Source: Fluviicola sp. (GTDB lineage Bacteria; Bacteroidota; Bacteroidia; Flavobacteriales_D; Crocinitomicaceae). From it: DNA of 64,000 nucleotides. Location of the stretch: assembly GCA_002734065.2 (NCBI GenBank), contig NVXU02000045.1, positions 62,001-126,000 on the forward strand, written 5' to 3'. Each line of letters begins with the position of its first letter. Position 1 is the first letter of the stretch. Of this stretch, positions 28,201 through 61,237 are shown piece by piece. The notes under the pieces were generated by a model that saw nothing but the letters and a program-made list of their open reading frames with translations, made no database searches and was not told the origin of the DNA. The translations under genes and the position numbers were made by a program.

Positions 28201-28472
28201 CAGTGTTGGTTTATGCAGTTATTCTCCACTTACGATTTATTCCAGCGCTAAGAAGTAAGTTTTTATTCAACGTTGTTTCCATGTGGGGTTATACTTCTAT
28301 TCTTTTCACGTTTTTCGGGGTCAATTTCTACCTTTCTGGCTTACACTCGTACGCACAAGGCGAAGGTTTGGCAAGAATACCATTTTGGGTGTTTATTACC
28401 TTTGGAATATTTATTTTGCTTACCTTGTTGGCAATTATTAGGAATGAGGTGTTTAAAAAAAGTGATGAGTGA
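25287..28472 (+). CDS. ccsBA: Fused cytochrome c biogenesis protein CcsB-CcsA (System II)
   Basis: 1061 residues. It moves heme across the inner membrane and attaches it to CXXCH motifs of c-type cytochromes. The N-terminal ResB/CcsB part has membrane segments at about 14-32 and 48-66 and 78-96, a large periplasmic region and a fourth segment near 445. A His-rich stretch (AHAGHNHG, about 506-513) starts a linker domain of about 240 residues. The CcsA part (about 740-1061) has eight or so membrane segments, conserved histidines, and the heme-handling WWD-type motif WGRYWGWDPKETWAL. A substrate is encoded nearby (pentaheme cytochrome at 41.7 kb). The final SDE and TGA stop lie in a repeat array. 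Confidence 0.93.
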   Translation: MEKFARSFFSMKMMTFCLFIFLVAIGTATFVESAYDIDTAKGLIYNAWWFNLLLFYLCMNLIANIIRYRMWQKEKIAMLMFHISFIVILIGAAITRFYSFEGLMLVREGETVDFIYSSDVKLWYKINDGKLQYTNFHDLRMSNHRWLSNDFSYDFEFPNHKTPIAIDFVDYQTGLVDSLVVNDSIKASSIEIVTGGMSSNFISQGDFLMLGDIAMSFDKSDAMPGIELFQSGSKVLMKTQFPMRYLPMAEMRAARQSGEEVADSLYELVPTDTLIPLQSATLYQVADEQFVYKGLKKHSQKMKVPSNVKGEGVTILTMKVSDGNQSKIIELEGGAGKIPNHVVFELAGLSYEMEFGPMQIKLPFAIRCNDFILDKYPGSDMASSFASEVTLIDTKNKYERNQRIFMNNVLDYGGYRFFQSSYDPDEKGTRLSVNHDFWGTNITYLGYLLMSIGMIFSLFSKGGRFRLLSDKLKKSREKRTQLMSIFVGLLLSTSLGFSQDSTDAHAGHNHGSSEDRVMRMMSEEHSEELSSLLAQNFQQRISPIHTLCDQLLRKIHKKDHFGEFNAVQTIFSMHMDPEFWMNEKIIYVSSKSNLRKNLKMDGKYIAFIDLVDNTGAFKLMEDYQEAHQRLEMNRDEYDKKLIKLGERFQVFESVLGWRYMKVVPLRNDETHTWLIPMDMEIGLKDSVAFNYVKNYFVSLGKAVGDSSYVEASKELAAFKNYQKEVSGDILPSESLIAQEISYNKMHIFSNSYKSYLLLGFLMLIIFFIRIFIRPSTGASRVFAMITKVLIGLVAIVFLYHGYGIYLRAMIAGHAPWSNGYEAVIFIAWISVLFGFIFSPKNAVILAGAVILASLMIFVTELELMDPEITNLQPVLKSYWLKIHVAVITGSYAPLGLAFILGLLNLFLYIFRTKKNSAIVNLNINELTWVSEMTMTIGLFMLAIGTFLGGVWANESWGRYWGWDPKETWALVAVLVYAVILHLRFIPALRSKFLFNVVSMWGYTSILFTFFGVNFYLSGLHSYAQGEGLARIPFWVFITFGIFILLTLLAIIRNEVFKKSDE

Positions 28473-28625
28473 TGAGTTAGGAGTGATGAGTGATGAGTGA
28501 TGAGTGATGAGTGCACCTCGGCTGACGCTCGGCAACCAGTGATGAGTTAGGAGTTAGGAGTTAGGAGTGAGAGTCTCGAGCAAGAGTAAATCTAAAACTC
28601 GAAGGCTCCAAAGCTCGAAAGCTCC
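28461..28625. repeat. Stop-anchored word array D (ccsBA to bshB1)
   Basis: Starting inside the ccsBA stop, GTGATGAGT and GAGTTAGGAGT words repeat to 28512. A module GCACCT...AACCA follows (28513-28538), then more GAGTTAGGAGTTAGGAG words, and finally the opposite-sense words CTCGAAGGCTCC and AAAGCTCGAAAGCTCC just before the bshB1 ATG. A 25-base block (28468-28492) is identical to 61148-61172. Confidence 0.9.
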
Positions 28626-28637
28626 AAATCAAAACCA

Positions 28638-29360
28638 ATGAACGAAAAAATCGACATATTAGTTTTCGCAGCGCATCCAGATGATGCTGAATTGTCTTGT
28701 TCTGGCACTTTAATGAAGCACATTGCCAATGGAGCAAAGGTTGCGATTGTTGATTTAACCCAAGGCGAATTAGGTTCTCGAGGAACGATTGAAACTCGTT
28801 ATGCAGAAGCGAAGGATGCTTCCAAAATAATGGGTATTTCTCACCGTGAGAATCTGAAAATGCAAGACGGTTGGTTTGAAATCAATGAAGAAAACAAACG
28901 ACTAGTCATTGAGCAAATTCGACGTTTTCAACCGAAGATAGTTTTGGCAAATGCCTTAACCGATCGACATCCTGACCACGGAAGAGGAGGAAAATTGGTT
29001 TCCGAAGCTTGTTTTTTGGCAGGCTTAAGAAAAGTAGAGACAACTTGGAAGGGAGAAGCTCAAAATCACTACCGACCGAATGCCGTTTATCATTACATCC
29101 AAGATTATTACATAAAACCAGACTTCGTAGTCGATGTGACTGACTTTGTAGAACGAAAAACAGAAGTAATTAAGGCCTACAAAACGCAATTTTTCGATGC
29201 CAACTCCGCAGAACCTGAAACACCAATTTCTGGAGAAGATTTCTTTGATTTTATCCTTTCTCGTATGCGCGAAATGGGAAGACCCGCCGGAATGAAGTAT
29301 GCCGAAGGGTTTACGGTAGAGCGGTTTTTGGGCGTGGAGGATATGTTGGGGTTGGGGTAG
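28638..29360 (+). CDS. bshB1: Bacillithiol biosynthesis deacetylase BshB1
   Basis: 240 residues of the LmbE/PIG-L zinc deacetylase fold. It removes the acetyl group from N-acetylglucosaminyl-malate in making bacillithiol, the main low-molecular-weight thiol of many Bacteroidota. The metal motif AHPDDAE (12-18) and the second motif DRHPDHGRGG (near 115) are intact, with TQGELGSRGT, DKKTEVIKAYKTQF-like and GRPAGMKYAEGF segments matching BshB1. The other genes of the pathway (bshA, bshC) are not in the window. Confidence 0.93.
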   Translation: MNEKIDILVFAAHPDDAELSCSGTLMKHIANGAKVAIVDLTQGELGSRGTIETRYAEAKDASKIMGISHRENLKMQDGWFEINEENKRLVIEQIRRFQPKIVLANALTDRHPDHGRGGKLVSEACFLAGLRKVETTWKGEAQNHYRPNAVYHYIQDYYIKPDFVVDVTDFVERKTEVIKAYKTQFFDANSAEPETPISGEDFFDFILSRMREMGRPAGMKYAEGFTVERFLGVEDMLGLG

Positions 29361-29382
29361 GTTTGTTTTTGTGCTATATTTG
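29352..29382 (+). promoter_or_regulatory. Promoter for the HEPN-like gene, inside the end of bshB1
   Basis: TTG at 29352-29354, 20 bases and TATATTTG at 29375-29382 match the consensus well. The box ends 9 bases before the ATG at 29392, so the mRNA leader would be only a few bases. This also rules against a GTG start at 29371. Confidence 0.6.
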
Positions 29383-29391
29383 TTAGGAACT

Positions 29392-30069
29392 ATGTTGAGT
29401 AAAGTAAATAATAGGTATTTAGTATCGGCGAATACAAAAGCGTTGTTCAATGAAAAGCTAAATTATATTCAAGACATTCTTAATCAAATTGAACCTGAAC
29501 CAGATCCAAGTCAAATTGAAAATAAGCACAACGAGCGAAATAATATTGATTTAGTAGATTTATCTCCAGAGGACTTTGATTATCATAACTCGGAAGTAGA
29601 AATGATAAAGACTGCTGCCAAGCAATTTCCAAGGATACTTCATTCTTCTATTTTTGTTAGCGCTCATTCAATATTTGAAGCTACATTCTCAGATATTCGA
29701 AAGGATGTAGAAAATCTAGATGAAAATAGAATTAAATTAAAACATCTTAAAGGGATTGGATCTGAAATATCTAATGTGCTTAATTATTTTGACTTAGTTC
29801 ATAATTTGAATTTTTCGATGCTTGATGAGAAACTTGAAACAATGAAGGGTTACTCATTGGTGCGCAATACTATTGTACATCAAAATGGAAATATGTCAAA
29901 GCTAGACGATTCAAGAAAGAACCGTTTAATAAAATTTATCAAGAGTCAAGTATGTATTGAAATTGAAGGTGAGAACATTATTATTGATAAAAAATTCGTC
30001 AATGATTACGTTAATTCTGTTCTTGATTTTGGTCTAGAATTATTCGAAAGAATTCAAATAACAAAATAA
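29392..30069 (+). CDS. HEPN-like protein, candidate RNase
   Basis: 225 residues, all predicted helical. The segment GYSLVRNTIVHQNGN contains the RxxxxH motif (R158, H163 from this start), here RN...H, which is the catalytic signature of HEPN RNases. An upstream helix (RILHSSIFVSAHSIFEATF) matches the HEPN pattern of RiboL-PSP/MAE_28990-type proteins. The start is ATG at 29392, fixed by the promoter. No nucleotidyltransferase partner (MNT) or other defence gene is next to it, so toxin, antiphage or housekeeping roles are all open. Base composition is more AT-rich than its neighbours, which hints at transfer. Confidence 0.65.
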   Translation: MLSKVNNRYLVSANTKALFNEKLNYIQDILNQIEPEPDPSQIENKHNERNNIDLVDLSPEDFDYHNSEVEMIKTAAKQFPRILHSSIFVSAHSIFEATFSDIRKDVENLDENRIKLKHLKGIGSEISNVLNYFDLVHNLNFSMLDEKLETMKGYSLVRNTIVHQNGNMSKLDDSRKNRLIKFIKSQVCIEIEGENIIIDKKFVNDYVNSVLDFGLELFERIQITK

Positions 30070-30094
30070 TTTATTTCTGTTATTAGGAAGTTAT

Positions 30095-30146
30095 CCCCAA
30101 GCCATCGCGCGAATCTTTCCCCAAGCTACCTCGCGAATCTTTCGCG
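30095..30146. repeat. GAATCTTTCGCG-type dispersed repeat, copies 2 and 3
   Basis: Two tandem copies of CCCCAAGC-YAYCKCGCGAATCTTTC (about 30095-30119 and 30119-30143). The second ends in a small perfect hairpin CGCGAATCTTTCGCG (30132-30146). A reverse-complement copy is at 17421-17446. They lie between two convergent genes. Confidence 0.75.
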
Positions 30147-30171
30147 TGGGTCTAGAAAGCTAAAATATTTA

Positions 30172-30618
30172 CTACCCAACCCCCAAAACCTCAATCTTCC
30201 CATTAAACTCCACCACATCCCCAACTTTCTTCCCTTCCAAGACTCTCCCCAATGGAGTCGTCACCGTCAAGCAAAAAACAGACTCATTACCAACTTCAAT
30301 CTTGCCTAAACCAACAGAGAAAAAGAAAAGTCCTTTGTTTGTTTTGACCAAGCTTCCAAATTGGATGGTAGAATGAACTTCATCCACGTTGATTTGGGCA
30401 AAAGCTTCCCTCAAAATTTTTACTTGCTCCAATTGCAGAGCTAATTTTTCTTGCTCTAAATGAATCATTGCTCGACCTGTTTCGTGCTTATCGCCAGCAG
30501 TGCTTTTGGAGTCGTTGGCAACGGCAGAGTTGAGGTCGTCAAAAGCGTCTGAAATTCGCGCCTCTTTTTGCGAAATTTCTTTGAAAACTGCCTGGTAAAC
30601 TGTTGCTTTATTGAGCAT
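30172..30618 (-). CDS. GreA/GreB C-terminal-like protein
   Basis: 148 residues. An N-terminal helical hairpin (SQKEARISDAFDDLNSAVAN, then HLEQEKLALQLEQVKILREAF) precedes a compact domain with VKTNKGLFFFSVGLGK, TVTTPLGRVLEGKKVGDVVEF, close to the FKBP-like C-terminal domain of transcript-cleavage factor GreA. Homologues in flavobacteria have been labelled 3-oxoacyl-ACP synthase, which the sequence does not support. I chose ATG at 30618 over TTG at 30627. It overlaps the GT4 gene by 11 bases and is likely co-transcribed with it. Confidence 0.75.
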   Translation of the reverse strand: MLNKATVYQAVFKEISQKEARISDAFDDLNSAVANDSKSTAGDKHETGRAMIHLEQEKLALQLEQVKILREAFAQINVDEVHSTIQFGSLVKTNKGLFFFSVGLGKIEVGNESVFCLTVTTPLGRVLEGKKVGDVVEFNGKIEVLGVG

Positions 30619-31732
30619 GTTTCTCAATTAATTGTTGCCACTTTTGCAGAATAGAATCGGAAGAATATTTCTTTGCAAACTCACGAATCACATTGCTATC
30701 AAGGCTTTCCGAATGGGCTGTGATTCTTGCCATTGCGTTTTTTAAAGATGCTGCATTGTTGTTTTCGACAGCAATTCCCAAATCTTTGTTTTCTGCAAAC
30801 GCAATGCCAACGGGCGTGGAAATAGTCGGCGTTCCAGTCATCCAAGATTCTGCCAAAACAATGGAAAATGTCTCGTAATAGGAGAACAATATAAAAGCAT
30901 CCGCTTTGTGGTAATAAGCAACGGTTTCTTCCCATTTTAAAGGACCAACAAATGTTATTCTGTCGAAGACATCCTCCCTTTTTGCATATTCTTGCATTTT
31001 TGTAGAATCTTCGTCAGAAACAATGGTTAAGTGAAAAGAATGACCCTCTTTTTTGAGCAAAGAACAAGCGATAATAATTCCCTTTGGATTTTTTGTTTGC
31101 TCGTCCAAAGTCGAAATGTGTAGAAATTCTGTGGTGCTATTTTTTTGTTCTGGAGAAAGCGAAAACAACTCTTCATCGACGTGATTGCCAATAACCTTGA
31201 TGTCAGAATTGCTAAAAATAAGCTCCATGTCCTTCTTTAGAAAGTCTGAAACAGCAATGATCTCATCTGCACGTTTTTTTAATTGTTTTAAAAGGTATTT
31301 TTCAATAAAATTAAAGTCATTTCTTTTTTCTGCCCTAAAATAAGAGCCGTGCTCAATGTAAAATAGGGGACAGTTAAATCTCTTTTTGGCTTCGATAAAT
31401 TGCCAAGATTTAGGCAGTGCAACATGACCAATAATAAGGTTGACATGGTCAATTAAATTCATTCCATTAGCAAACGCCGCGACTTGCTCCCTTCGCTTTC
31501 TCAATATAGACTTACCTTTCGGGTGGCGCACTGTTATTTCGCAAAGATTGCCATTCTGCGTTTTCTCTACGGAAATTTTCTTCAGAGAATCATCTGCAAC
31601 CGTGTTTAAAACAGTGATTTTGTATTCTCTAGCAAGCAATTCTGCCTGACGCTGCACAAAATTACCCAAAAAGGGCTGCTCGTTGGTTGGATACCAAGAA
31701 CTGATGATGAGTATGTGTGTTATTTTTGACAT
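30608..31732 (-). CDS. Glycosyltransferase, GT4 type
   Basis: 374 residues of GT-B fold. The N-terminal half starts HILIISSWYPTNEQPFLGNF with FVQRQAELLA (about 5-34). The C-terminal donor half has SYYETFSIVLAESWMTGTPT (about 295), which holds the E-x7-E pattern of retaining GT4 enzymes, then ISTPVGIAFAENKDLGIAVE. It probably builds a cell-surface glycan at the cytoplasmic face. Substrates are not predictable. Downstream it overlaps the GreA-like gene. Confidence 0.88.
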   Translation of the reverse strand: MSKITHILIISSWYPTNEQPFLGNFVQRQAELLAREYKITVLNTVADDSLKKISVEKTQNGNLCEITVRHPKGKSILRKRREQVAAFANGMNLIDHVNLIIGHVALPKSWQFIEAKKRFNCPLFYIEHGSYFRAEKRNDFNFIEKYLLKQLKKRADEIIAVSDFLKKDMELIFSNSDIKVIGNHVDEELFSLSPEQKNSTTEFLHISTLDEQTKNPKGIIIACSLLKKEGHSFHLTIVSDEDSTKMQEYAKREDVFDRITFVGPLKWEETVAYYHKADAFILFSYYETFSIVLAESWMTGTPTISTPVGIAFAENKDLGIAVENNNAASLKNAMARITAHSESLDSNVIREFAKKYSSDSILQKWQQLIEKHAQ

Positions 31733-31734
31733 TT

Positions 31735-31936
31735 TTTGTTTTAGAAACGCTGACGCTTTTAGGTAATTAGAAACGCTTAGCTTTTAGAAACATTGCGCTT
31801 CGCTTCATTTTTAGAAACGGTCGTTCCTCCCTTTTAGATTATATTCACTTCTATTATACATTATCCGCTATACACTATACATTCTAACAACATCTACTTA
31901 AAAACTCATCACTCCACACTCCACACTCCTCACTCA
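31735..31936. repeat. Stop-anchored word array E (cysteine desulfurase to GT4)
   Basis: Read on the minus strand from the cysteine desulfurase TGA: GAGTGAGGAGTGTGGAGTG words, then GTATAGTGTATAG-like words, then CTAAAAGGG, TTTCTAAAAATGAAGCGAAG and TTTCTAAAAGC words up to the GT4 start. The 22 bases at 31796-31817 recur inverted at 35095-35116, and 17 bases at 31920-31936 recur at 33795-33811. Confidence 0.85.
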
Positions 31937-33073
31937 AACCAACGTCTTCTCATAAACTTCCTTCACCACCTTTAATGCCATTTCTATTTCTTCTTTCGTT
32001 GTGTATCTAGAGAATGAAAAACGAGCATTAGGTCGTGTCATATCAGCGTTAATTCCTGTTAAAACGTGAGAACCAACACTTGCTCCAGAAGTACAAGCAC
32101 TACCTCCTGAAACAGCAATTCCTTTTAAGTCCAGGGTGAATAATAACATGCTTGATTTATCTGTTTTCGGAAAGCAAACGTTTAATACTGTATAAAGCGA
32201 ACGGTTAGGATCTGTTTCTCCATGAAAATGAATGTCACTAAAGATATTTTTAAGTTCATTCAAGAGGTATGTTTTCAATTCTTGCACATGTTTTTGATGA
32301 CTTGTTACATCTTCATAAGCCAAATCCATCGCTTTTGAAAGACCAACTATGCCGTAGACGTTTTCAGTTCCTCCACGAAATCCTCTTTCTTGAGAACCTC
32401 CGTGAATCAATGAAGAAACTTGCACTTTCTTATTCACATACAAGAAACCAATGCCTTTTGGTCCGTGAAATTTATGCGCTGCCCCGGTTATAAAATCGAT
32501 GTCTAACTCTTTGAGGTCAAAGGTATAATGTCCCATCGTCTGAACAGTGTCAGAATGAAAAAGAGCATTGTGTTTTCGGCAAAGTTCACTCACTTTTTGT
32601 ATAGGCAGTAAGGTTGCGATTTCGTTGTTCGCGTGCATGAGGGAAACCATTGCTTTTCCATTCTCTTGCAGTAATTCTTCAAGATGCGTTAAGTCAACAT
32701 GTCCGTTCTCATCGACATTCACCAAAGAAACTTTTACTCCGTAAGCTTTTGCAATTGCATCTGCGGTATGACCAACTGCGTGATGTTCTAACGCAGAAGT
32801 AATGATATGTGTCACGCCCATTTTGGTGACTGCAGAAGTCAGCGCAAGGTTGTCGGCTTCCGTTCCTCCAGAAGTAAAAATAATCTCAGAAGCTTCACAA
32901 TTAAGATGCTTTGCAATAGAACGTCTTGACGTTTCGAGCAATCCTTTTGTACTCCTGCCAAAAGAATGTGTCGATGAAGGATTGCCAAAAGAATCTTTGA
33001 GAATAGGTAACATTGCTTCTACAACCTCGGGTGCGATTGGAGTCGTTGCAGCATTGTCTAAATATATAGCCAT
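31934..33073 (-). CDS. Cysteine desulfurase (NifS/IscS type)
   Basis: 379 residues, a PLP enzyme that takes sulfur from cysteine for Fe-S clusters and thio-modified tRNA. It has YLDNAATTPIAPEV (4-17), the PLP histidine region (SALEHHA), the PLP lysine in TGAAHKFHGPKGIGFLY (about 200-216) and the active cysteine in GGSACTSGASVGSHV (about 325-339), as in IscS/NifS. It stands alone without iscU, so the sulfur acceptor is unclear. The TGA stop is the first base triplet of a repeat array. Confidence 0.93.
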   Translation of the reverse strand: MAIYLDNAATTPIAPEVVEAMLPILKDSFGNPSSTHSFGRSTKGLLETSRRSIAKHLNCEASEIIFTSGGTEADNLALTSAVTKMGVTHIITSALEHHAVGHTADAIAKAYGVKVSLVNVDENGHVDLTHLEELLQENGKAMVSLMHANNEIATLLPIQKVSELCRKHNALFHSDTVQTMGHYTFDLKELDIDFITGAAHKFHGPKGIGFLYVNKKVQVSSLIHGGSQERGFRGGTENVYGIVGLSKAMDLAYEDVTSHQKHVQELKTYLLNELKNIFSDIHFHGETDPNRSLYTVLNVCFPKTDKSSMLLFTLDLKGIAVSGGSACTSGASVGSHVLTGINADMTRPNARFSFSRYTTKEEIEMALKVVKEVYEKTLV

Positions 33074-33096
33074 AATTTCTGAAATTCAATTATGCA

Positions 33097-33104
33097 CAAA
33101 TTTA
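33097..33104 (-). promoter_or_regulatory. -7 promoter box for the cysteine desulfurase gene
   Basis: On the minus strand TAAATTTG (33097-33104) fits TAnnTTTG, 23 bases before the ATG. No clear -33 element. Confidence 0.45.
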
Positions 33105-33131
33105 GAAAGAAAAGTAAGAATCACGACCCTT

Positions 33132-33653
33132 CTAATCAAGGTCTTTCCCCAGAATGTGCCTCATTGTTATATTCCCAACGGGCGCGCGTTTTAAATTCTC
33201 CATGATGGATAAGCTTTTTTCTATTTTTTTAGTGCTTGACTTTACCTGCAGAATTAGATAAATAGTCGCTCTTCTTTTTCCCATAGTTAAGGACTCAAAA
33301 CGACTTTTTGCCTCGTTATCTTGCTCCAGGACCTCAGAAAATTCTTCTGGAACATCAAAACCATATTCTGAAGTGTCTCTGGTGAGAATAACGTCCACTT
33401 CATCGTTGGGTTGCACATTAATCTCCTTCATTCGAGCTTTGGAGAAGGCGATGTATGCACTGTCATTCCCTAAGGCGGTAGTACCACCTTTCCATTTTAT
33501 CTTGTCATTAATGGTCACCTCAAACCGCTGATTGAAAACCGAACCCTTGTCCTCAGAAGTTTGAGTTTTTTCTAAAAGTTCTCTCTGCACAACAATGTGA
33601 TGCATTTTTAACTTGGGCAAAAAATCAATTTTCGATTTAAACTTCAAAACCAT
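33132..33653 (-). CDS. DUF1905 / YdeI (OmpD-associated) family protein
   Basis: 173 residues. An N-terminal DUF1905 beta-barrel-like domain (VTINDKIKWKGGTTALGNDS, then DEVDVILTRDTSEYGF) is followed by a YdeI/OmpD-associated helical region (VPEEFSEVLEQDNEAKSRFE, YLILQVKSSTKKIEKSLSIM, ENLKRAP). The family has been linked to resistance to a bacteriocin-like protein in other bacteria; the function here is unproved. It lies between the VWA array and the cysteine desulfurase. Confidence 0.8.
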   Translation of the reverse strand: MVLKFKSKIDFLPKLKMHHIVVQRELLEKTQTSEDKGSVFNQRFEVTINDKIKWKGGTTALGNDSAYIAFSKARMKEINVQPNDEVDVILTRDTSEYGFDVPEEFSEVLEQDNEAKSRFESLTMGKRRATIYLILQVKSSTKKIEKSLSIMENLKRAPVGNITMRHILGKDLD

Positions 33654-33834
33654 GTTGAAAGATAAGAATAAATTGGAGCATTAGAGCATTAGAGCATTAG
33701 AGCATTGGAGTATTGGAGCACCTGCCTGTAGGCGGACAAGTTCGATTGCCCTTTATCACTCCGCGTTCATCACTCCTCACTCCACACTCCACATTCCACA
33801 CTCCTCACTCATCGCTCCACACTCAAATCACTCC
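33654..33834. repeat. Stop-anchored word array F (VWA gene to YdeI-like gene)
   Basis: On the minus strand from the VWA stop: GAGTGTGGAGCGATGAGTGA and GGAGTGTGG words, a module whose plus-strand form starts GCACCT at 33718 and contains CTGCCTGTAGGCGG, then CTCCAATGCTCTAATGCTC words to the start of the next gene. It has the same order of parts as array D. Confidence 0.88.
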
Positions 33835-34946
33835 GTCTCAAACCCAATTTCTTTCGCACGTGTTTGAATACTTTTATTCACTGAAGTTCCAAAATCATCC
33901 ACTTTATCTACTCCAGCCAATTTTTTCATCTCAACATCGATAAACGCTTGTCTATCTTTCGCTAATTCTGCAATTCTCTTCTGATAAATTTGACGTTCTA
34001 CTTTTTTCTGCTCAATGAGTACTTTTTTCTCAGCAGTTGTTTTTCCTTTAAATTCTTCAGGTAATTCTTCTTCTTTGACCTCAGATATTTTGAAATTTTC
34101 ATCATCAGATGCATCCAATAAATCCCAAGAAGAATTTTTATAAACCCCTGATCTTGATTTAGCAACAGTTCTTTCTGCAGCCACATTAATAGACTCTGAC
34201 ATTGCATTGCCATCTTGTGCAGATTGCATTGCTTTTTTCTCCATTCCTAAAGAACCATAGCCGTAATAAGTCCCATTGAGAGAATCATTGTACTGCATGA
34301 TATCTTTGTCGTAAGGCGTATCTATTTGTACAACTTGTCTGTCAGAATCGATGTTAAAATAGTCGCCTTCGCTGCAAGTTGCTCCATCTTTCCAGAATAA
34401 TTGTACTCCTGTGTCATAATTTCCACAGAAAATAGTGTTGATGAAAATGCCTTTTGCTGCTGCTTTCTTACATTCTTTTTTGTAGTCAACAGGTCCTTGG
34501 GAAAAGCTTTCGTTGCCTGCGATGTAAATCATTTTTAAATCAAGCGGAGAATTTGACCATTTCAGATCACTCAATGATTTTCCAATCACTGCACCACAAA
34601 ATTCTGATCCTCCATTGGTTCTTAGACCGAATAATTTTTGCGAAATATCGTCTAAATCGCTGGTTAATGGAACAACTTGTTGAATGTAGTTTTGTGACAT
34701 TTCCAAACCATCGTTTCCGTATTGATAAATGGCAATTTCTATGCTTGGAGTTCTTCCGTTGTAGGTCAAAGTGCTGACTTCATTTACGATGCTCCATATT
34801 CTGGATTTCGCTTGGTCAATAAGTCCATCCATACTGTTTGAAGTATCAAATAAAATGGCTAATTGTACTTTTCTGTTGCTTTGCTGTGCTCTGGACACCA
34901 TTACTGTCGTGGTAATCAGAAGAGCCGTTAAGATTAATTTTCTCAT
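33828..34946 (-). CDS. Secreted von Willebrand factor A domain protein
   Basis: 372 residues. A signal peptide (about 1-20, ending SRAQ) is followed by a VWA domain whose metal site DTSNS (34-38) is intact, with SLTY-type helix and GGSEFCGAVIGKSL (about 118). The rest is a helical region rich in Lys and Glu (KTTAEKKVLIEQKKVERQIY) with an acidic stretch. VWA domains bind proteins through a divalent ion; the partner here is unknown. The stop TGA lies in the repeat array that follows. Confidence 0.85.
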   Translation of the reverse strand: MRKLILTALLITTTVMVSRAQQSNRKVQLAILFDTSNSMDGLIDQAKSRIWSIVNEVSTLTYNGRTPSIEIAIYQYGNDGLEMSQNYIQQVVPLTSDLDDISQKLFGLRTNGGSEFCGAVIGKSLSDLKWSNSPLDLKMIYIAGNESFSQGPVDYKKECKKAAAKGIFINTIFCGNYDTGVQLFWKDGATCSEGDYFNIDSDRQVVQIDTPYDKDIMQYNDSLNGTYYGYGSLGMEKKAMQSAQDGNAMSESINVAAERTVAKSRSGVYKNSSWDLLDASDDENFKISEVKEEELPEEFKGKTTAEKKVLIEQKKVERQIYQKRIAELAKDRQAFIDVEMKKLAGVDKVDDFGTSVNKSIQTRAKEIGFETE

Positions 34947-34979
34947 GTCGTTGTGTTTTTTTTATTCTGTACAACGAAG

Positions 34980-35160
34980 ATGAAGTTTGGTTCAAAGTGA
35001 GGAAAGAGCGTTAGAGTTTTGGAGTATTAGAGCATTGGATAGTCTTGAGTAAGAGTAATGAGTCTAACAATCTAAAAACGAGCGAAGCGAAGTATTTCTA
35101 AAAATGAAGCGAAGCGAAATGTCTCTAACAGCGAAGCGACTCTAACACTCTAACTCTCCA
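34980..35160. repeat. Stop-anchored word array G (35.1-kb gene to VWA gene)
   Basis: On the minus strand: GAGAGTTAGAGTGTTAGAG starting in the stop of the 180-residue gene, then CGCTTCGCTTCATTTTTAG words, then CTCTAATACTCC and AAAACTCTAACGCTC words. The first and last parts pair with each other. The 22 bases at 35095-35116 are the inverse of 31796-31817. Confidence 0.88.
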
Positions 35161-35692: not shown

Positions 35693-35722
35693 TTCTTAGA
35701 GGTTGGTTGAAATTGTTCATTA

Positions 35723-35755: not shown

Positions 35756-35843
35756 CAGTCATTTTTAGGTTATCAACATTTTTTTCAACAGTTGGTAGTT
35801 AATCCTTTTGGAAATTAAATTGAAAAGATAGATAAGTTAGACG

Positions 35844-35928
35844 AAAGACTGAGAGACAAAAGATGAAAGACAAATGCTCCAAAGTAATCTAAGTCTTTCA
35901 TCTTTTGTCTCTCAGTCTCTCAGTCTTT
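35844..35928. repeat. GACTGAGAGAC hairpin array H at the acyltransferase stop
   Basis: AAAGACTGAGAGACAAAAGA followed by TGAAAGAC (35844-35871) pairs with 35893-35918 over 26 bases without mismatch, around a 21-base loop. The right arm then repeats CTCAGTCT. The acyltransferase stop TGA and its last two residues are inside the right arm, so the stem would form at the end of that mRNA. Confidence 0.9.
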
Positions 35929-53594: not shown

Positions 53595-53616
53595 CGCTTT
53601 AATTTAAAATAAACTG

Positions 53617-53624: not shown

Positions 53625-53650
53625 CATGTACCAACTGTTAAAAATAACCA

Positions 53651-54379: not shown

Positions 54380-54513
54380 AAAAGAGCCGTTAGCTATTGG
54401 CTTTTGGCGGTTAGCCAGACTGTTTTTAACAAATTTAATCTTTTTTTTTACTAAAAATGACAAGTAGATTCGGTCAATAGCTAACGGCTAAAAGCCAATC
54501 GCTAAAAGCCACC
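54380..54513. repeat. GCCGTTAGCTATTGGC word array K between birA and the SRPBCC gene
   Basis: AGCCGTTAGCTATTG (54386-54400) pairs exactly with CAATAGCTAACGGCT (54474-54488). GGCTTTTGGCGGTTAGCC on one side and GGCTAAAAGCC words on the other extend the match. An AT-rich spacer separates them. Both flanking genes are convergent, and the words start within 10 bases of each stop. Confidence 0.8.
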
Positions 54514-54915: not shown

Positions 54916-54922
54916 AGTTGCG

Positions 54923-55561: not shown

Positions 55562-55566
55562 GGATG

Positions 55567-55574
55567 CAAATGTA
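55567..55574 (-). promoter_or_regulatory. -7 promoter box for pyrE (leaderless)
   Basis: On the minus strand TACATTTG (55567-55574) fits TAnnTTTG and ends 5 bases before the ATG, which places the expected start site at the ATG itself. Confidence 0.5.
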
Positions 55575-55642
55575 CAAAGTTTTTATTGACCTCGAAGGAA
55601 TTTTTTTCGTGAAATTGAGTGGTTTCGAGAAGCTAATTGAAA

Positions 55643-56215
55643 TTACGGTATAATAAATCCGTTAAGACAAAAAGATCCACTGATATTAAAGGTGTCAATG
55701 GGAGCTTGTCCATTGGTCCAAGGGTAAGAATGTGCGAAACCTGTAAAAGTAGCGGATACAGGTCTGTAAATCCCGTCTAAAGTGTTTAAATTACTTGACG
55801 CGACGGTGAAAGTTACATTCGAAACGTAAAGCGAAAGGGTATCTACGGAAATATCAAAATAGTCAAAGTCTAATGAACTGTAGGTTGTTGAACCAACACT
55901 AAATTCATTGGGTAATACCAGGTTTGCTGCCATAAAATTGCCATTTTGGTCATTGGAAGCCATTAAAAAATTCGTTTCTTGTAAGCCGTACCAATTGTGA
56001 ATGATGGTGAAGTTGGTCGTAGCATCAGTTACCATTGTATGATTAACTCCATTAACATCAATGCTGAATTTTCCTTGATTTGTATAACAATAATTGGAAG
56101 TTCCAGATGCACTTGAAGAAACCGAAGGGTCTGTTTTGTTTTCTTCTTTTTTACAAGATGTTGCTATTACTAGCAAGGAAAAACAAAGAGTTAAAATGTA
56201 GAGTGTATTTTTCAT
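55643..56215 (-). CDS. Lipoprotein of unknown function
   Basis: 190 residues. Lipobox LLVIATSCKKE with Cys21. A Ser- and Asn-rich stretch (SVSSSASGTSNYCYTNQGKF) precedes a beta-rich domain with no recognised family (YSSLDFDYFDISVDTLSLYV; YSWT-type end). Its gene follows a broken lipoprotein on the same strand after 11 bases. Role unknown. Confidence 0.7.
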   Translation of the reverse strand: MKNTLYILTLCFSLLVIATSCKKEENKTDPSVSSSASGTSNYCYTNQGKFSIDVNGVNHTMVTDATTNFTIIHNWYGLQETNFLMASNDQNGNFMAANLVLPNEFSVGSTTYSSLDFDYFDISVDTLSLYVSNVTFTVASSNLNTLDGIYRPVSATFTGFAHSYPWTNGQAPIDTFNISGSFCLNGFIIP

Positions 56216-56226
56216 TATTTTTTAAT

Positions 56227-56418
56227 TTAGTAAGTTGTGGCGTGTTTGCCCTGAGCAAAGGTTGTAGAAGTTTTGAGTAGCTTAACCTCTATATCAGGTA
56301 TGCCTTTATTGGTAACAGGGTTTATTACTCTGCCCGAAACACGAATGTTTTTACCAAATTTGGTGCAAGAGAGCGAGAATAATAGAATGATTGATACGAT
56401 GTATAGTATGACTTTCAT
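56227..56418 (-). pseudogene. Truncated lipoprotein with carboxypeptidase-regulatory-like domain start
   Basis: 63 residues. The N-terminus has a good lipobox (LLFSLSCTKF) and the start of a CarboxypepD_reg-like domain (VSGRVINPVTNKGIPDIEVK then LLKT), which normally runs for 80 or more residues. Here it ends abruptly at STTFAQGKHATTY. It looks like the 5' fragment of a larger lipoprotein. Its ATG overlaps the stop of the T9SS fragment in an ATGA. It could also be a short functional protein. Confidence 0.5.
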
Positions 56419-56663
56419 GGGACTATTAATTTTTGTTGTTTCAATGTTCCATCTAAATAAACACGTATAATATAGACACCTTTGGGTAAACATTGTTTAC
56501 AATGATACCTTGCCCTGTTTATGTTTTCTTGTTTTAGGAGCAAGTTACCACTTAAATCGTAGATTTCAAAATAATCTATGGGTACATCTTGCATGTTGGC
56601 AATGGTAAAGGTACCGTTAGAAGGGTTGGGGAAGATGCGGATTTCTGACATTGGAGCATTCAT
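56415..56663 (-). pseudogene. T9SS type A sorting domain without a passenger
   Basis: 82 residues that are just a T9SS C-terminal domain: IRIFPNPSNGTFTIANMQ, YFEIYDLSGNLLLKQE and KGVYIIRVYLDGTLKQQKLI to the end. It has no signal peptide and no upstream domain in frame; an in-frame TAA lies a few codons upstream of the ATG. It is most likely the 3' remnant of a secreted protein that lost its body. The start shown is the first ATG and is arbitrary. Confidence 0.65.
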
Positions 56664-56721
56664 TACGGTCTTCTCTTAAATCAGTCGAAATACTTTCGGA
56701 ATGTGAAATAAACACACCGAA

Positions 56722-58194
56722 TTAACGAAGGTCTCGTTTTTCCTCTTCTCCGTCATTAATAACAAGCACCGCCATCACCAAAATCCCCAAATAAGCAGGA
56801 ATTCTGTACCTGACAATTGCTCCCAACACAGGAGTTACCCATCCGATGAGCAATGATAGGGTAAGAATAGAAAGAACGATGCCTATGATTAAAGCTTTCT
56901 GATTCTCAGATAATTTTCTTCTTTTCCGAATGGCATAGAATAAGAATACAAAAAGGAGCAAAGTCTCTATGATGGCTGGATATTTTAGCCAGCCACCCGG
57001 GTCATTGATAAAAGGCCGCAAAAGACTATTGATGAGTGCTTCTGGAATGTTTTTGAGCAGTTGCCCGAAAGAATCATCGATGAGCGTAACCTCGATAAAG
57101 CCGTCGCTTTGTAGGTTTTGAAAATAAATAAACCATTTTTCTTCCGACGGTTGCAAGGTGATAGGAATGGGTTTTTTCATGCCGCCATGTTGCAAAACCA
57201 ACGCATTTATTTCCTTGGAAACAGAAACAGAATCCCCATCAATTAATAAGTCCCCAATTTGGTCTTGACGAAAGAAATAGAAGTTAGAATCTGCCATTGC
57301 ATGAACTCCTCCCTTGCCTACATTTTTAAAATCAAACTGTTTTCTAGACAGAATGTGAACAATTTTACCTCTTTGTTCTGAAAAGATGAAAAGCGACGCA
57401 ATTCCGAGAGAAAATAGGATCAATAACGAGGCAATGATTCTCTTTTTTGTGAAATATTGGTACACTATATAAAAGACCAACGCGGGAAGCATTGCAAATA
57501 GGACATAAGGCTTGAATCCTATCAAAAGGCAGATGCCAAGCAAAGAGAAAATCCATTTTTGTTTGTAAGAAATAGCTTTGTCAAACAATCCTCTTAGGAG
57601 CAAACTCAATCCTAAGAACATGAATGGTTCTTTCAAAATACCAGAGGACCAAAAGAGTAAACTTGGGAAAAGTAAGAGCAATAGAAAAAGAACTCGATTG
57701 CTCAAAAGCGTCCATTCTTTTATGGTGAGAAACAATTGTTTGAGTGCTATTGTAGAGAAAAAACACATGGCTATAATGTGATTGGCCGTGTTTCCAAAGC
57801 TGAAAAAATGAAACAGACTGTGCACCCGGACAATATTTCTGTTATCGTTGATTAGTGTTTGAGCTCCAGCATCCCAGTGAGAGGTCTCTTGAAGATAGGT
57901 GAACATCAATTCTTGCTGATTGCCCAATCCTGTCAGTAATTTGAGATAATCGAGGGGGGAAGTGTAAAAAACGGCGTTCAAAATTTCACTTTCTGCCATA
58001 AAAACACCAGCGTCAGCACTTAAAGTTCCTTTTCCATAGATGTCTGTGTAGATGTATAGAAAGACGAAGCCCACTATTACTTTTAATAAGAAAGCGAAGG
58101 GTAAAGTCCAACTATTAAGAGAAGGAATGCCCAATTTCTTGACATACTTAAATGCAAAAAACAAAAGTGCAAAAAGAAAAAAGGTGTAAAACAT
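56722..58194 (-). CDS. Polytopic membrane protein of unknown function
   Basis: 490 residues with about ten membrane segments and one periplasmic loop of about 130 residues (near 270-390). The pattern of long hydrophobic segments with conserved LLFWSSGILKEPFMFLGLSL (about 185) is like that of wzy-type or GT39-like envelope enzymes, but no signature is clear enough to assign. ATG at 58194 is preferred over a TTG at 58221. It is followed by the T9SS remnant. Possibly made for a surface glycan; not shown. Confidence 0.75.
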   Translation of the reverse strand: MFYTFFLFALLFFAFKYVKKLGIPSLNSWTLPFAFLLKVIVGFVFLYIYTDIYGKGTLSADAGVFMAESEILNAVFYTSPLDYLKLLTGLGNQQELMFTYLQETSHWDAGAQTLINDNRNIVRVHSLFHFFSFGNTANHIIAMCFFSTIALKQLFLTIKEWTLLSNRVLFLLLLLFPSLLFWSSGILKEPFMFLGLSLLLRGLFDKAISYKQKWIFSLLGICLLIGFKPYVLFAMLPALVFYIVYQYFTKKRIIASLLILFSLGIASLFIFSEQRGKIVHILSRKQFDFKNVGKGGVHAMADSNFYFFRQDQIGDLLIDGDSVSVSKEINALVLQHGGMKKPIPITLQPSEEKWFIYFQNLQSDGFIEVTLIDDSFGQLLKNIPEALINSLLRPFINDPGGWLKYPAIIETLLLFVFLFYAIRKRRKLSENQKALIIGIVLSILTLSLLIGWVTPVLGAIVRYRIPAYLGILVMAVLVINDGEEEKRDLR

Positions 58195-58238
58195 TCCTAT
58201 TTTTTTCGTAAAAATAAACAATATTCGATTCTAAGTGT

Positions 58239-58297
58239 CAGTTTGTCCAATTTCTAGGACAGTTTGTCATAAAAATGTTGATGGCACAGTGATTGAC
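58239..58297 (+). promoter_or_regulatory. Sigma-54-like promoter with two upstream repeats before htpG
   Basis: TGGCAC (58282-58287), 5 bases, then TTGAC (58293-58297) match the -24/-12 layout of sigma-54 promoters; the last C of TTGC is an A. Upstream, CAGTTTGTC occurs twice (58239-58247, 58260-58268), 21 bases apart (two DNA turns), as activator sites often are. TSS near 58308, 20 bases before the ATG. No TAnnTTTG box is present. Confidence 0.5.
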
Positions 58298-58328
58298 TAT
58301 GTAAAATCAAATAATTAAAATTAATAAA

Positions 58329-60218
58329 ATGAAAACAGGTAAAATAAATGTACAAACGGAAAACATCTTTCCCATCATTAAAAAGTTCTTGTATTCTGAC
58401 CACGAAATATTTTTACGAGAATTAGTGTCAAATGCAGTAGATGCATCTCAAAAATTAAGATTTCTTTCTACAAATGGTGAATTTAAAGGGAAATTAGGTG
58501 AACTAAAGGTAGAAGTTATCCTTGATTCTGAGAATAAAACATTAACGATTAGAGATCACGGTATTGGAATGACGGAAGATGAGATTGATAAATACATCAA
58601 TCAAATTGCTTTTTCTGGTGCGGAAGAATTTGTGGAGAAATACAAAGGAAAAGAAGGAGCAGAGCAAATAATTGGTCATTTCGGATTGGGCTTTTATTCT
58701 TCATTCATGGTGGCAGATAAAGTTCAGATTAGAACTCTTTCTCACAAAAAAGGAGCAAAAGCTGTGCAATGGGAAAGCAATGGCTCGCCAGAATTTACCA
58801 TAGAAGACATTGAAAAAACAGAGATTGGTACGGATATTGTCCTATATATCTCAGAGGAATCAAAAGAATTTACGGAGAAAGGTAGAATTCAAGGGATTCT
58901 TGATAAATATTGCAAATTCTTGTCAGTGGCTGTGTTTTTTGGCACAAAAACGGAGTACATTGATGATCCGAAGGGAGAAAAAGATGAGAACGGGAAAGTA
59001 AAACGCGTTGCGAATGAAATTCCCAATCAAGTAAATAATATTGCACCGGCTTGGACTAAAAAACCGGCTGATTTATCAACGGAAGAGTACAATTCTTTCT
59101 ACAGAGAATTGTATCCTACTACGATGGAATCACCCTTGTTTCACATTCATATGAATGTTGATTATCCGTTCAACTTGACGGGGATTCTTTACTTTCCAAA
59201 AATTCAAGAGAATATCGAAGTGCAACGAAATAAGATCAATTTGTACTCAAATCAGGTGTTTATAACGGATAATGTAGAGCAAATTGTACCCGAATTCTTG
59301 ACTTTGTTGCACGGCGTCATTGATTCTCCAGATATTCCGCTCAATGTTTCTCGTTCTTACTTGCAAAGTGATAGCAATGTGAAGAAAATTTCTTCTCACA
59401 TCACCAAAAAAGTAGCCGATAAATTGGCTTCCATGTATAAGAATGATCGAAAGGATTTTGAGTCTAAATGGGAAGATTTGAAAATTTTCGTGCAATATGG
59501 AACGCTTTCTGATGATAAATTCAGTGAAAAAGCAAAATCATTTTCTTTGCTAAAAAACACGGAAGGAACTTACTTTTCTATCGAGGAATACAAAGAGAAA
59601 GTGGAAACTTTACAGAAAGATAAAGACGACAAAGTAGTGATGCTTTACACCAACGATCCAGTTGAACAATTTGGATTTGTGAAAAAAGCGAAAGACAGAG
59701 GTTACGATGTTTTGCACATTGATGGACCGATTGCTCCGCATTGGATTGCAAAATTGGAGCAAACTTATGAGAATATCACTTTTTCTCGCGTTGATGCTGA
59801 CACTTTGGATAAATTGATTCAAAAAGACGAAGAAATCCCTTCTAAATTGTCAAAAGAAGACGAAGAAGCATTAAAACCGTTGTTTGAAGGTGTTGTGAGT
59901 AAAGATAAGTTCACCATTCAGTTTGAGAGCATGAATGCTGATGATGCACCAATTATTATTACGCAACCAGAATTTATTCGCAGAATGATGGAGCAACAGA
60001 AAATGGGAGGCGGTGGCTTTATGGGTGCGTTTCCGGACATGCACAACCTTATGATTAATGGAAACCATGCAAAAATTCAAGAGATTTTAGATACGAAGAC
60101 TGATAAGTCTAAGAAATCTAAGATCAAACAATTGACGGACATTGCATTGCTTTCACAAGGATTGTTAAAAGGAGAGGCTTTGAATCAATTCATAGAGCGT
60201 AGCATCGAGAAAGTTTAA
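58329..60218 (+). CDS. htpG: Chaperone HtpG (Hsp90)
   Basis: 629 residues, full length. An ATP-driven homodimeric chaperone of the cytoplasm. The N-terminal GHKL ATPase holds FLRELVSNAVDASQKLRFL (about 28-46, with the catalytic Glu and the Asn), TIRDHGIGMTEDEI and GHFGLGFYSSFMVADKV. The middle domain has LYFPKIQENIEVQRNKINLY and PLNVSRSYLQSD, and the C-terminal domain ends GLLKGEALNQFIERSIEKV. Its own sigma-54-like promoter suggests stress control. Ends at a strong terminator. Confidence 0.97.
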   Translation: MKTGKINVQTENIFPIIKKFLYSDHEIFLRELVSNAVDASQKLRFLSTNGEFKGKLGELKVEVILDSENKTLTIRDHGIGMTEDEIDKYINQIAFSGAEEFVEKYKGKEGAEQIIGHFGLGFYSSFMVADKVQIRTLSHKKGAKAVQWESNGSPEFTIEDIEKTEIGTDIVLYISEESKEFTEKGRIQGILDKYCKFLSVAVFFGTKTEYIDDPKGEKDENGKVKRVANEIPNQVNNIAPAWTKKPADLSTEEYNSFYRELYPTTMESPLFHIHMNVDYPFNLTGILYFPKIQENIEVQRNKINLYSNQVFITDNVEQIVPEFLTLLHGVIDSPDIPLNVSRSYLQSDSNVKKISSHITKKVADKLASMYKNDRKDFESKWEDLKIFVQYGTLSDDKFSEKAKSFSLLKNTEGTYFSIEEYKEKVETLQKDKDDKVVMLYTNDPVEQFGFVKKAKDRGYDVLHIDGPIAPHWIAKLEQTYENITFSRVDADTLDKLIQKDEEIPSKLSKEDEEALKPLFEGVVSKDKFTIQFESMNADDAPIIITQPEFIRRMMEQQKMGGGGFMGAFPDMHNLMINGNHAKIQEILDTKTDKSKKSKIKQLTDIALLSQGLLKGEALNQFIERSIEKV

Positions 60219-60233
60219 TAAATTTGTAGTAAC

Positions 60234-60267
60234 AAAATGTCGTTCTGATTTACAGAGCGACATTTTT
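60234..60267 (+). terminator. Intrinsic terminator after htpG
   Basis: AAAATGTCGTTCTG (60234-60247) pairs with CAGAGCGACATTTT (60253-60266), 14 bp with one T-G, around a 5-base loop and followed by T. It is 15 bases after the stop. Confidence 0.8.
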
Positions 60268-60281
60268 AAATAAATAAGGTA

Positions 60282-61061
60282 TTGATTAAGTGGATTTTTG
60301 CAGCAGCAGGTTTTTTTCTTCTGAATAGAAGCTTCATGGGCGGAATTTTAGGCTTTATGTTGGGTTCTTTTGTGGAGAATTATCAACGCGTTTTGGGCAG
60401 AGCAAAAGCCAATGCGCACAGTCAAGGAAGAAAATTTTCTACGGAAGATGTTTTTCAATATTATCAGCAACGTTCATCTTCCAGTGATTTTCCAACAATG
60501 TTGATGGCGCTTTCGGCTGCTGTTATGAAAGCCGATGGTAAAATTCTAAAATCGGAGTTGAATTACGTTAAAACCTTCTTTAATCAGCAATTTGGACCAC
60601 AATTTTCGGGCAGTCATTTGCAAACCTTGAAACAATTTTTAGATTCTGACAATATTCCTTTGCAGCGGATTTGCCAAGATATTCAAATGAGAATGCAACC
60701 TGCAGTAAGAACGCAATTGTTGCACTATCTTTTTGGTATTGCGAAAGCTGACGGCGATGTTTCTCCTCCAGAAATTCGAGTAATTGAACAAATAGCCAAC
60801 TTAATGGGCGTTTCTTCGGTTGATTTTGAAAGTGTGAAGAATATGTTCTACCGAAATGTTGATTCTGACTACACAATTTTAGGCATTGATTCTTCTGCAA
60901 GTGACGATGAGGTCAAAAAAGCCTATCGAAAAATGGCGATTAAATTCCATCCAGACAAAACGGCGCAAATGGGAGAGCAATATCAGAAAGGAGCAAAAGA
61001 GAAATTCCAGCAAATTCAAGATTCTTACGAAGCGATTAAGAAGCGGAGAGGGATGAAATAG
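60282..61061 (+). CDS. TerB- and DnaJ-domain protein (DjlA-like)
   Basis: 259 residues. One N-terminal membrane segment (about 2-22, IKWIFAAAGFFLL then GGILGFMLGSFVENY) is followed by a TerB-like helical domain (about 70-185) and a C-terminal J domain (about 198-259: DYTILGIDSSASDDEVKKAY, IKFHPDKTA with HPD intact). It would recruit DnaK at the membrane. The order matches DjlA of enterobacteria. The start is TTG at 60282, the only normal start after the in-frame stop at 60267-60269. The TAG stop is the first word of the array that follows. Confidence 0.88.
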   Translation: MIKWIFAAAGFFLLNRSFMGGILGFMLGSFVENYQRVLGRAKANAHSQGRKFSTEDVFQYYQQRSSSSDFPTMLMALSAAVMKADGKILKSELNYVKTFFNQQFGPQFSGSHLQTLKQFLDSDNIPLQRICQDIQMRMQPAVRTQLLHYLFGIAKADGDVSPPEIRVIEQIANLMGVSSVDFESVKNMFYRNVDSDYTILGIDSSASDDEVKKAYRKMAIKFHPDKTAQMGEQYQKGAKEKFQQIQDSYEAIKKRRGMK

Positions 61062-61237
61062 AGCGTTAGAGCGTTAGAGCTTTCGAGTGTTAGAGCTTTG
61101 GATAGGGTCTTGCACCTCGCTTCGACATACATCGGTAACCAACGAGGAGTGATGAGTTAGGAGTGATGAGTGTGAAAAGCGAAACTCAGTCTAACACTCC
61201 AATGCTCTAAAACTCCAAAGCTCCAATACTCCATCCT
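61059..61237. repeat. Stop-anchored word array L (DjlA-like and RsmI-like, convergent)
   Basis: TAGAGCGTTAGAGCGTTAGAGC words begin in the DjlA-like stop. A module GCACCT...AACCA follows (61112-61141), then GAGGAGTGATGAGTTAGGAG words. CTAACACTCCAATGCTC and AAAGCTCCAATACTCC words (the opposite sense) end at the RsmI-like TAG. The outer parts pair as a long imperfect hairpin. 61148-61172 is identical to 28468-28492. Confidence 0.88.

Follow-up and report, generated by a model that had tools for sequence, protein, structure and literature searches.

The stretch of DNA analysed here (the window) comprises 64,000 nucleotides of a Fluviicola sp. draft genome (GenBank assembly GCA_002734065.2, contig NVXU02000045.1, positions 62,001 to 126,000; G000:C32:62001-126000 in our numbering), which totals 3.49 Mb in 62 contigs. 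Gaps between its genes hold tandem arrays of seven- or eight-nucleotide words that are G-rich on one strand (G type when read on that strand, C type when read on the other), and an initial annotation had reported that at seven genes or more the stop codon itself belongs to such an array. Inspection of the sequence together with Tandem Repeats Finder (TRF) showed for each of the seven genes named (7/7) that a word array includes the stop codon or borders on it, these being ccsBA, a cysteine desulfurase gene, a VWA-like gene, the gene of a 180-aa protein, an acyltransferase gene, phoH and a DjlA-like gene. Pfam matches were obtained for ResB and cytochrome c assembly (ccsBA), PIG-L (the gene behind the ccsBA gap), aminotransferase class V, acyltransferase, PhoH and TerB with DnaJ, and at 0.001 the VWA-like protein and the 180-aa protein remained without a match. 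The stop codon is TGA at 28472, 31934, 33828, 35920 and 19718 and TAG at 35150 and 61061; TAA ends none of the seven genes, as compared to 572 of 986 open reading frames (ORFs) of at least 150 aa in a blind sample of the genome. For ccsBA, comparison of the C-terminus with relatives identified the final residues SDE as array-coded. The arrays were found to be parts of inserted blocks, about 80-200 bp long where an empty or short site can be compared, and the explanation judged best, with a probability of roughly 0.55, is that of polar insertion blocks which are mainly tolerated in gaps and were copied in at DNA-end repair.

Evidence for insertion comes from the genus, of which 34 genomes were searched and within which the gene order near 25-35 kb of the window is conserved. 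The spacing of ccsBA and the PIG-L gene is 165 bp in the window versus -14 to +1 bp in 12/12 relatives having both genes (20 stretches were taken, and both orthologs were found in 12), and words occupy the 165 bp together with a 23-nt module and facing octamers. The gap at the cysteine desulfurase gene measures 201 bp; among 20 relatives it spans 4-41 bp in 19, and the remaining one (G041; C42, L099) possesses a 310-bp gap with other words, namely GTCAAATA octamers. By its cysteine desulfurase gene G041 is the closest relative, yet it carries different octamers at this same junction, hence the words turn over or the gap was hit repeatedly. Behind the 180-aa gene the gap is 203 bp here, compared with 33 bp in the single relative where the two genes are neighbours, and in the VWA gap several relatives show, by eye, a hairpin with a T-run where the window has words. 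Two array-free junctions nearby served for comparison and are close to normal in length: w10-w11 measures -20 here and -11 to -32 in 18/20 relatives, and w12-w13 measures 58 here and 3-41 in 11/13, thus being slightly longer in the window.

The cleanest case lies elsewhere in the genome, within a P-type ATPase gene, where a 78-bp in-frame insert adds 26 residues that are absent in 15/15 orthologs aligned (two partial matches, G009 and G017, were left out of the alignment). With edges ambiguous by a few bases, the insert consists of about 36 bases of G-type octamers, which extend a native TTGGAACG of similar appearance, about 5 bases of loop and about 34 bases of C type, and thereby shows the build and the polarity of a block in the absence of a gap, a stop or a start. 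The initial annotation had considered slippage beginning at stop codons as a source of the arrays, which is not borne out by a block that has neither stop nor gap edge, nor by blocks residing where the relatives' genes overlap.

The genome-wide position of the arrays was determined in stretches chosen without regard to arrays (the blind sample; 1,417,060 of 3,491,160 bases, 40.6%, window excluded), in which genes were called as the longest non-overlapping ORFs of at least 80 aa, gaps were counted from at least 40 bp and arrays were detected by TRF with a period of 7, 8 or near multiples. Sample 1 was taken from contig starts, which are possibly repeat-rich; later interior samples pointed in the same direction with fewer arrays. 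Long and perfect heptamer arrays were seen at the ends of three contigs (L011 1-99, L034 1-98, L027 4210-4314), so that the assembly may be interrupted by the longest arrays, which would then be under-counted. Arrays occur in 90 of 605 gaps, i.e., 22/111 convergent, 54/364 tandem and 14/130 divergent ones. In the window and sample 1, period 7 accounts for 43 of 147 TRF rows in gaps, period 8 for 32, period 9 for five and period 6 for none, and coding rows lean to periods 9, 12 and 15. Among the 64 stop-side arrays, 27 overlap the stop codon or lie within 3 nt of it (null 9.3±2.7; a count of 27 was reached in none of 5000 placements) and the codon is contained in 15, whereas 7 of 44 start-side arrays are as close to or overlap a start (null 5.8±2.2). 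Thus, arrays abut stop codons beyond chance, and the genome-wide test proposed along with the initial annotation revealed neither random distances from stop codons nor an absence of strand bias. Genes with an array behind them end in TAA in 17 of 59 cases as compared to 572/986 overall, with the depletion being strongest in the subset whose array lies farther off (7/33, p 4e-5). This avoidance of TAA fits, without proving it, the idea that stops are supplied by the block or by linker modules. That the words carry stops in several frames does not hold as a general rule, as GAGTGTG, the commonest heptamer (36/152), has no stop trinucleotide in any frame; for the same reason a general role as backup stop codons in all frames was rejected.

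The strand of the arrays follows a rule. After removal of five clusters with equal G and C from the 113 clusters in the 605 blind gaps, 86 of the remaining 108 were found to lie closer to the ORF located 5' of their own G-rich strand (p 4e-10), and across TRF scores of 36-55 and ORF lengths of 80-150 aa this fraction stayed at 72-80% (p 0.003 to 4e-10). On the sense strand of the tandem gaps of samples 1 and 2 (38 with arrays), stop halves are 25 G:4 C and start halves 0 G:15 C (sample 1 alone, 22:3 and 0:13), while the stop halves of array-free tandem gaps are without G excess (81 G:99 C). The left half of a gap is G and the right half C on the plus strand irrespective of the gene directions, except for the seven clusters in divergent gaps, which are undecided, and arrays swallowed by over-long ORFs keep to the rule (5' ends 9 C:3 G, 3' ends 6 G:1 C), hence it is no artefact of ORF calling. 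Loci from other organisms were retrieved by a GAGT pattern scan, of which the best 80 of at least 119 stretches were used (35 cyanobacterial, 20 Bacteroidota and 25 other by record title); their vocabulary is thereby ascertained, their gene orientation is not. Here, 82 of 102 arrays in the 35 cyanobacterial loci and 52 of 74 in other Bacteroidota and other phyla together (p 0.0006) lie nearer to the 5' ORF, and the 16 cyanobacterial tandem gaps that possess both arms show the order G-first/C-last in 13 cases and C-first/G-last in none. Facing pairs, i.e., neighbouring opposite-strand arrays at most 150 bp apart, are G-first/C-last versus C-first/G-last in 25:2 cases in gaps of the Fluviicola genome (window included), 35:2 in cyanobacteria, 7:1 in other Bacteroidota and 16:2 in other phyla, which amounts to 83 versus 7 over all four sets. 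In coding DNA, where the counts include some ordinary coding low-complexity sequence or doubtful ORFs, the ratios are 3:2, 3:0, 2:0 and 3:0, respectively. The initial annotation had described the words as oriented with the gene: the G-rich strand does follow stop codons on the coding strand, but the rule is not tied to the gene, as start codons behave alike, and orientation by gene strand was rejected in favor of a rule relative to the gap edge, with G-type words reading inward from either edge. Since the inward rule is met also at starts and in cyanobacterial gaps, it looks like a rule of the block and not of the mRNA.

The words share a fixed core with variable slots (GAGT plus three; GAG plus two plus TT plus one). 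Among 152 GAG heptamers, 127 consist of GAGT followed by GTG (36), GAT (33), GTT (24), GAG (19), TAT (6), TAG (5) or GCG (4), and octamers are mostly GAG, then CT, CA, CG, TG, TT, TA or AT, then TT and G, A or C. A three-octamer pattern yielded 241 matches genome-wide versus 29 in the reversed control, and the heptamer pattern 190 versus 75, the latter control being inflated by words that read alike in another phase. The heptamer pattern was found in 4 of 24 genus relatives, with 38 of their 44 matches in G014, so that array loads are lineage-specific. Within blocks, modules recur that are not themselves words. The 23-nt module CCTCG.CT.ACGCTCGGCAACCA has seven matches in about 1.5 Mb, none in called ORFs and none in the reversed control, and copies read in context sit within word blocks; the linker AAGTAGAT(N)TGTTAGA adjoins arrays (four matches, none in the reversed control) and at L013 provides the TAG stop of the preceding gene. 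The motif CTTCGACA(A/G)GCTCAG was matched 14 times in about 1.5 Mb, eight of these in called ORFs, and not in the reversed control (e.g., L014 468; L020 16071; L025 5229; L048 15262), some of the copies lying within word blocks. The combination of a constant core with free slots suggests copying from a common pool, and homogeneous runs (GAGTGTT x11) and 14-nt alternations are present too, of which the former point to later slippage as well. A word-order test against slippage gave 28 adjacent-identical words versus 28.9±2.7, with the 14-nt alternation hiding signal.

Table 1. Word arrays and modules at the named sites of the window, and copies of the dispersed modules in the window and in other stretches (L numbers)
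Feature	Position	Strand	Basis and remarks
AAAATGA heptamers holding the TGA stop of phoH	19698..19728	+	TRF 62
G-type heptamers GAGTGAT/GAGTTAG	28461..28513	+	TRF score 92; encode final SDE and TGA of ccsBA
23-nt dispersed module CCTCGGCTGACGCTCGGCAACCA separating two arrays	28516..28538	+	Degenerate-module search
Second G-type heptamer array, GAGTTAG	28544..28568	+	TRF
Octamers, C type on + (CTCGAAAGCTCCAAAG), final arm ahead of PIG-L gene	28594..28628	-	TRF
G-type heptamers from TGA of cysteine desulfurase gene	31910..31935	-	TRF
Facing octamers ATTAGAGC, other word length than the VWA heptamer arm	33672..33720	+	TRF; complementarity 0.14
G-type heptamers 3' of VWA-like gene (stop 33828)	33757..33826	-	TRF, sequence
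Words and TTAGA...CGCTTCGCT modules 3' of 180-aa gene (stop TAG 35150)	35071..35147	-	TRF, sequence
GACTGAGA-type words across acyltransferase stop, near-perfect facing arm, strong hairpin	35839..35926	-	TRF; z -8.7
G-type octamers TTAGAGCG starting in TAG of TerB/DnaJ (DjlA-like) gene	61059..61099	+	TRF, Pfam
Mid-gap G-type heptamers behind a module	61144..61172	+	
Facing octamers, end 2 bp from stop of convergent gene	61190..61233	-	TRF
Copies of the 23-nt module	window 28516; L025 5112; L038 3275; L046 9569; L328 9273, 11127; L335 6319		
Copies of the linker AAGTAGAT(N)TGTTAGA	L013 14741; L025 11002; window 31883; L248 12118		

The proposal of the initial annotation that gaps of this kind can fold on themselves was not confirmed as a general plan. 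Of eight stretches folded from six named sites, five gave z between -1.9 and +0.8 and thus resembled shuffles; 28540-28637 gave z -3.1, at 35820-35925 the words form a strong hairpin (z -8.7), and for the phoH gap z was -9.4, owing to a palindrome other than the words. Complementarity of the arms is at most 0.25 in 14 of 28 G-C pairs of the Fluviicola genome and in 19 of 38 cyanobacterial ones; as half of the pairs thus have little complementarity, the polarity does not, in general, derive from base pairing of the arms. A hairpin-driven plan was likewise rejected, with inverted complementarity within gaps being barely above that between gaps (p 0.046 in the Fluviicola genome, 0.1 in cyanobacteria); strong inverted matches were found in 13/66 array gaps and 19/260 array-free gaps, the array-free gaps showing a similar excess. 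Between 25000 and 40000 of the window, the range scanned (the phoH and DjlA-like arrays lie outside it), 10 terminator-like sites were found versus 9.9 expected and none on the five named arrays there, which sets these arrays apart from intrinsic terminators with their GC-rich hairpin and T run. Rfam gave no match at gathering score in the window. Arrays as loading sites for Rho (C-rich words 7-8 nt apart) were set aside in view of the like polarity in cyanobacteria, which are not known to have Rho; a search of the literature on the spacing of YC dimers yielded no paper.

Arrays of this kind have precedents, contrary to the view of the initial annotation that no named element has this form. 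According to Rehm et al. 2015 (PMC4692102), the G-quadruplex (G4)-forming heptamers GGGAATC and GGGGA(C/T)T of Xanthomonas and Nostoc PCC 7120 are intergenic, lie closer to whichever ORF is 5' of their G strand, occupy the sense strand within 50 bp of stops, overlap included, and the antisense strand ahead of starts, form convergent pairs in Xanthomonas and are rare between divergent ORFs; three Calothrix heptanucleotides are mentioned there too. With these, the Fluviicola arrays share the tandem heptamer with fixed core and variable positions (GAGT and a variable triplet), the strand and position rule and the convergent pairs; between divergent genes, arrays occupy 14/130 gaps versus 22/111 between convergent ones (p 0.07). 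They differ by lacking G-tracts and G4, the dominant GAGTGTG, GAGTGAT and GAGCTTTG being without GGG, by comprising both 7- and 8-mers with extra modules, and by insertions documented in a gene and at an overlapping junction. MacGregor 2015 described arrays of the heptamer TAACTGA in Beggiatoaceae, Cyanobacteria and some Bacteroidetes (PMC4679880), which are likewise intergenic and patchy among species, and for three Bacteroidetes sets close relatives have shorter gaps without obvious repeats; unlike here, in the main genome of that study most of the sets lie on the sense strand ahead of start codons, and the study treated one word where here a vocabulary is found. Within a search of titles and abstract openings, with subscription papers mostly outside its reach, no paper came up that treats words unable to form G4 under this rule, octamers, or the insertion of blocks with a polarity of their own.

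The STRR heptamers of heterocystous cyanobacteria, tandem heptamers dispersed in gaps as here, have other words and are not known to follow a polarity rule. REP and REPIN elements with their RAYT transposases are dispersed, intergenic and convergent, with REPs being fixed-sequence hairpins beside the RAYT gene; the word arrays differ in that their arms are variable and often non-pairing, with half of the facing arms at or below 0.25 complementarity and five of eight folds like shuffles. Thus, the kind is known, and the variant described here, having no G-tracts and both word lengths, weakens G-quadruplex and 3'-end readings. There is no consensus on the mechanism behind the heptamer arrays reported from cyanobacteria, Xanthomonas, Beggiatoaceae and Bacteroidetes, and their functions have been conjectured from gene proximity; a strand rule that holds in non-G4 words, between unlike arms and in an intragenic block points to a rule at the level of origin rather than regulation, for which concrete empty-site comparisons are now available. 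Taken as a whole, the observation of the initial annotation was confirmed and its interpretation was supported as to stop abutment and the G-rich strand after stops, but not as to gene orientation, stop-born slippage, a folding plan and the absence of a named element.

As a like polarity is seen at stops and starts, in other phyla and in the block within a gene, it is likely to be a property of the block. The preferred explanation accordingly is that of polar blocks which would survive mostly where they are least harmful. At a stop codon, the G-first left end would often bring TGA or TAG immediately, and a hit in the last codons would cost few residues, so that arrays would appear to begin in stop codons; selection together with block-supplied stops best explains the stop overlap. 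If blocks do provide stop codons, a repeat process is reshaping where genes end in such genomes. The weakest step of the explanation concerns the machinery: during repair, a DNA 3' end may anneal by few bases to an existing array and copy G-type words from its C-rich strand, and both ends, extended often from different arrays, may then be joined. The result would be a head-to-head G...C block carrying the common vocabulary and modules of the genome.

Several results weigh against this explanation or parts of it. For the end-repair step, Ku was found in none of the 34 genus genomes, the parent genome (G000) has no match to the reverse transcriptase family RVT_1 at E 0.001, and no target-site signature was established for the blocks. 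A single clean intragenic insertion was found, a second intragenic array residing in the linker of a TPR protein whose length is naturally variable among relatives, and the relatives are mostly distant (ccsBA 50-65% aa). At a TRF score of 55, 9/30 stop-side versus 6/16 start-side arrays are near the edge, the stop preference thus resting mainly on shorter or more degenerate arrays and fading in the strongest ones, and for genes with the array at the stop the depletion of TAA is not significant alone (10/26, p 0.07). As to the polarity, small sets show the rule weakly or not at all, as do the tandem gaps of sample 2 (6:2 in stop halves, 0:2 in start halves) and the tandem clusters of the window (4:1 and 2:2), the array-free start halves (68 G:109 C) indicate that part of the start-side skew may be general, and tandem halves are 7:4 and 1:5 in other Bacteroidota (p 0.13) and 8:6 and 2:6 in other phyla (p 0.2). 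Divergent gaps follow the rule in four and contradict it in three cases in samples 1 and 2, and in cyanobacteria in 13 and six cases, respectively; coding pairs of the Fluviicola genome are three G-first to two C-first, both of the latter being ordinary coding low-complexity sequence. The two arms of a pair resemble each other more than randomly paired arms do (0.35 versus 0.23 in the Fluviicola genome, 0 of 500 permutations; in cyanobacteria 0.32 versus 0.27, P 0.03), so that in part one arm may be a copy of the other. The homogeneity of units is not clearly higher at the gene-proximal end, with ratios of 24:19 (p 0.27) in the Fluviicola genome, 33:16 (p 0.03) in cyanobacteria and 27:16 (p 0.15) in the others; directional growth toward the ORF was set aside on account of this weak gradient.

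That the arrays act at mRNA 3' ends in termination, 3'-end protection or as backup stops, and are kept there by selection, is considered unlikely. The adjacency to stops, the lower frequency in divergent than in convergent gaps (p 0.07), the strong hairpin at 35839-35926 and the hairpin with T-run that several relatives have in the VWA gap would suit such a role, as would the report that in Xanthomonas the starts or ends of transcripts fall into G4-forming repeats more frequently than into control repeats (PMC4692102). Yet the polarity is alike at start codons and in the intragenic block, the junction of ccsBA and the PIG-L gene overlaps or touches in the relatives compared, terminator-like sites are at expectation, most folds are near shuffles and GAGTGTG arrays provide no stops. 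Plain replication slippage, by which units of 7-8 nt would expand from seeds in gaps and the vocabulary would be convergent, is improbable as an origin of its own. Homogeneous runs and 14-nt alternations speak for slippage, and a proposed reason for heptamers, the contact length of DNA polymerase, is cited by Rehm et al. (PMC4692102). However, slippage would not yield words and modules common to unrelated gaps, and it would explain neither why arms of unlike words pair as G-first/C-last nor how a two-armed insert of 78 bp came to lie in a gene; insertions and shared modules thus speak against slippage as sole origin, and it is likely a secondary process.

Dispersal in the manner of REPs and REPINs by a RAYT-type Y1 transposase is very unlikely. 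One Y1_Tnp match is present in each array-rich genome seen (G000, G014, G041), and convergent GGAG...CTCC arms resemble REPINs, but Y1_Tnp also occurs in 10 further genus members, of which seven contributed stretches holding 0, 0, 0, 0, 0, 1 and 2 intergenic arrays and three were without a heptamer-pattern match; moreover, the arms often fail to pair, and the gap before the only Y1_Tnp gene of the parent genome holds a palindrome and no word array. An even lower probability is given to a telomerase-like reverse transcriptase adding the words. DRT10, which according to PMC12632851 makes 9-nt tandem-repeat DNA from a non-coding RNA template, would provide a model, and the way in which the G strand runs away from each edge is reminiscent of capped ends; unlike in that system, no RVT_1 match was found in G000 (99.98% complete), and none in G014 or G041, whereas RVT_1 is present in 8 of 34 genus genomes, of which, in seven compared (G047 being left out), five had no array in their stretch and two no heptamer-pattern match. 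A related and rather unlikely reading takes the arrays across Bacteroidota, Cyanobacteria and others as scars of broken ends that were capped telomere-style and then fused head to head. Each 3' end would have been lengthened by G-strand words that run away from the original sequence, through an end-extension activity requiring neither Ku nor a recognisable reverse transcriptase.

Some further features of the window and genome were recorded. The palindrome in the phoH gap (window ~19727-19774) has a perfect 21-bp stem, TAGTACGGGC...GCCCGTACTA, and like palindromes lie upstream of the genome's only Y1_Tnp match (L248 7711) and at L039 8-39; the palindrome near phoH is possibly a REP-type element. 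In the one relative compared for phoH, the protein ends six residues earlier. By the PIG-L gene, an ORF of 232 aa (window 29371-30069) has no homologue in the 20 stretches of relatives, and on the minus strand at 12827-16006 the window encodes a protein of 1059 aa with collagen-like G-X-Y repeats.

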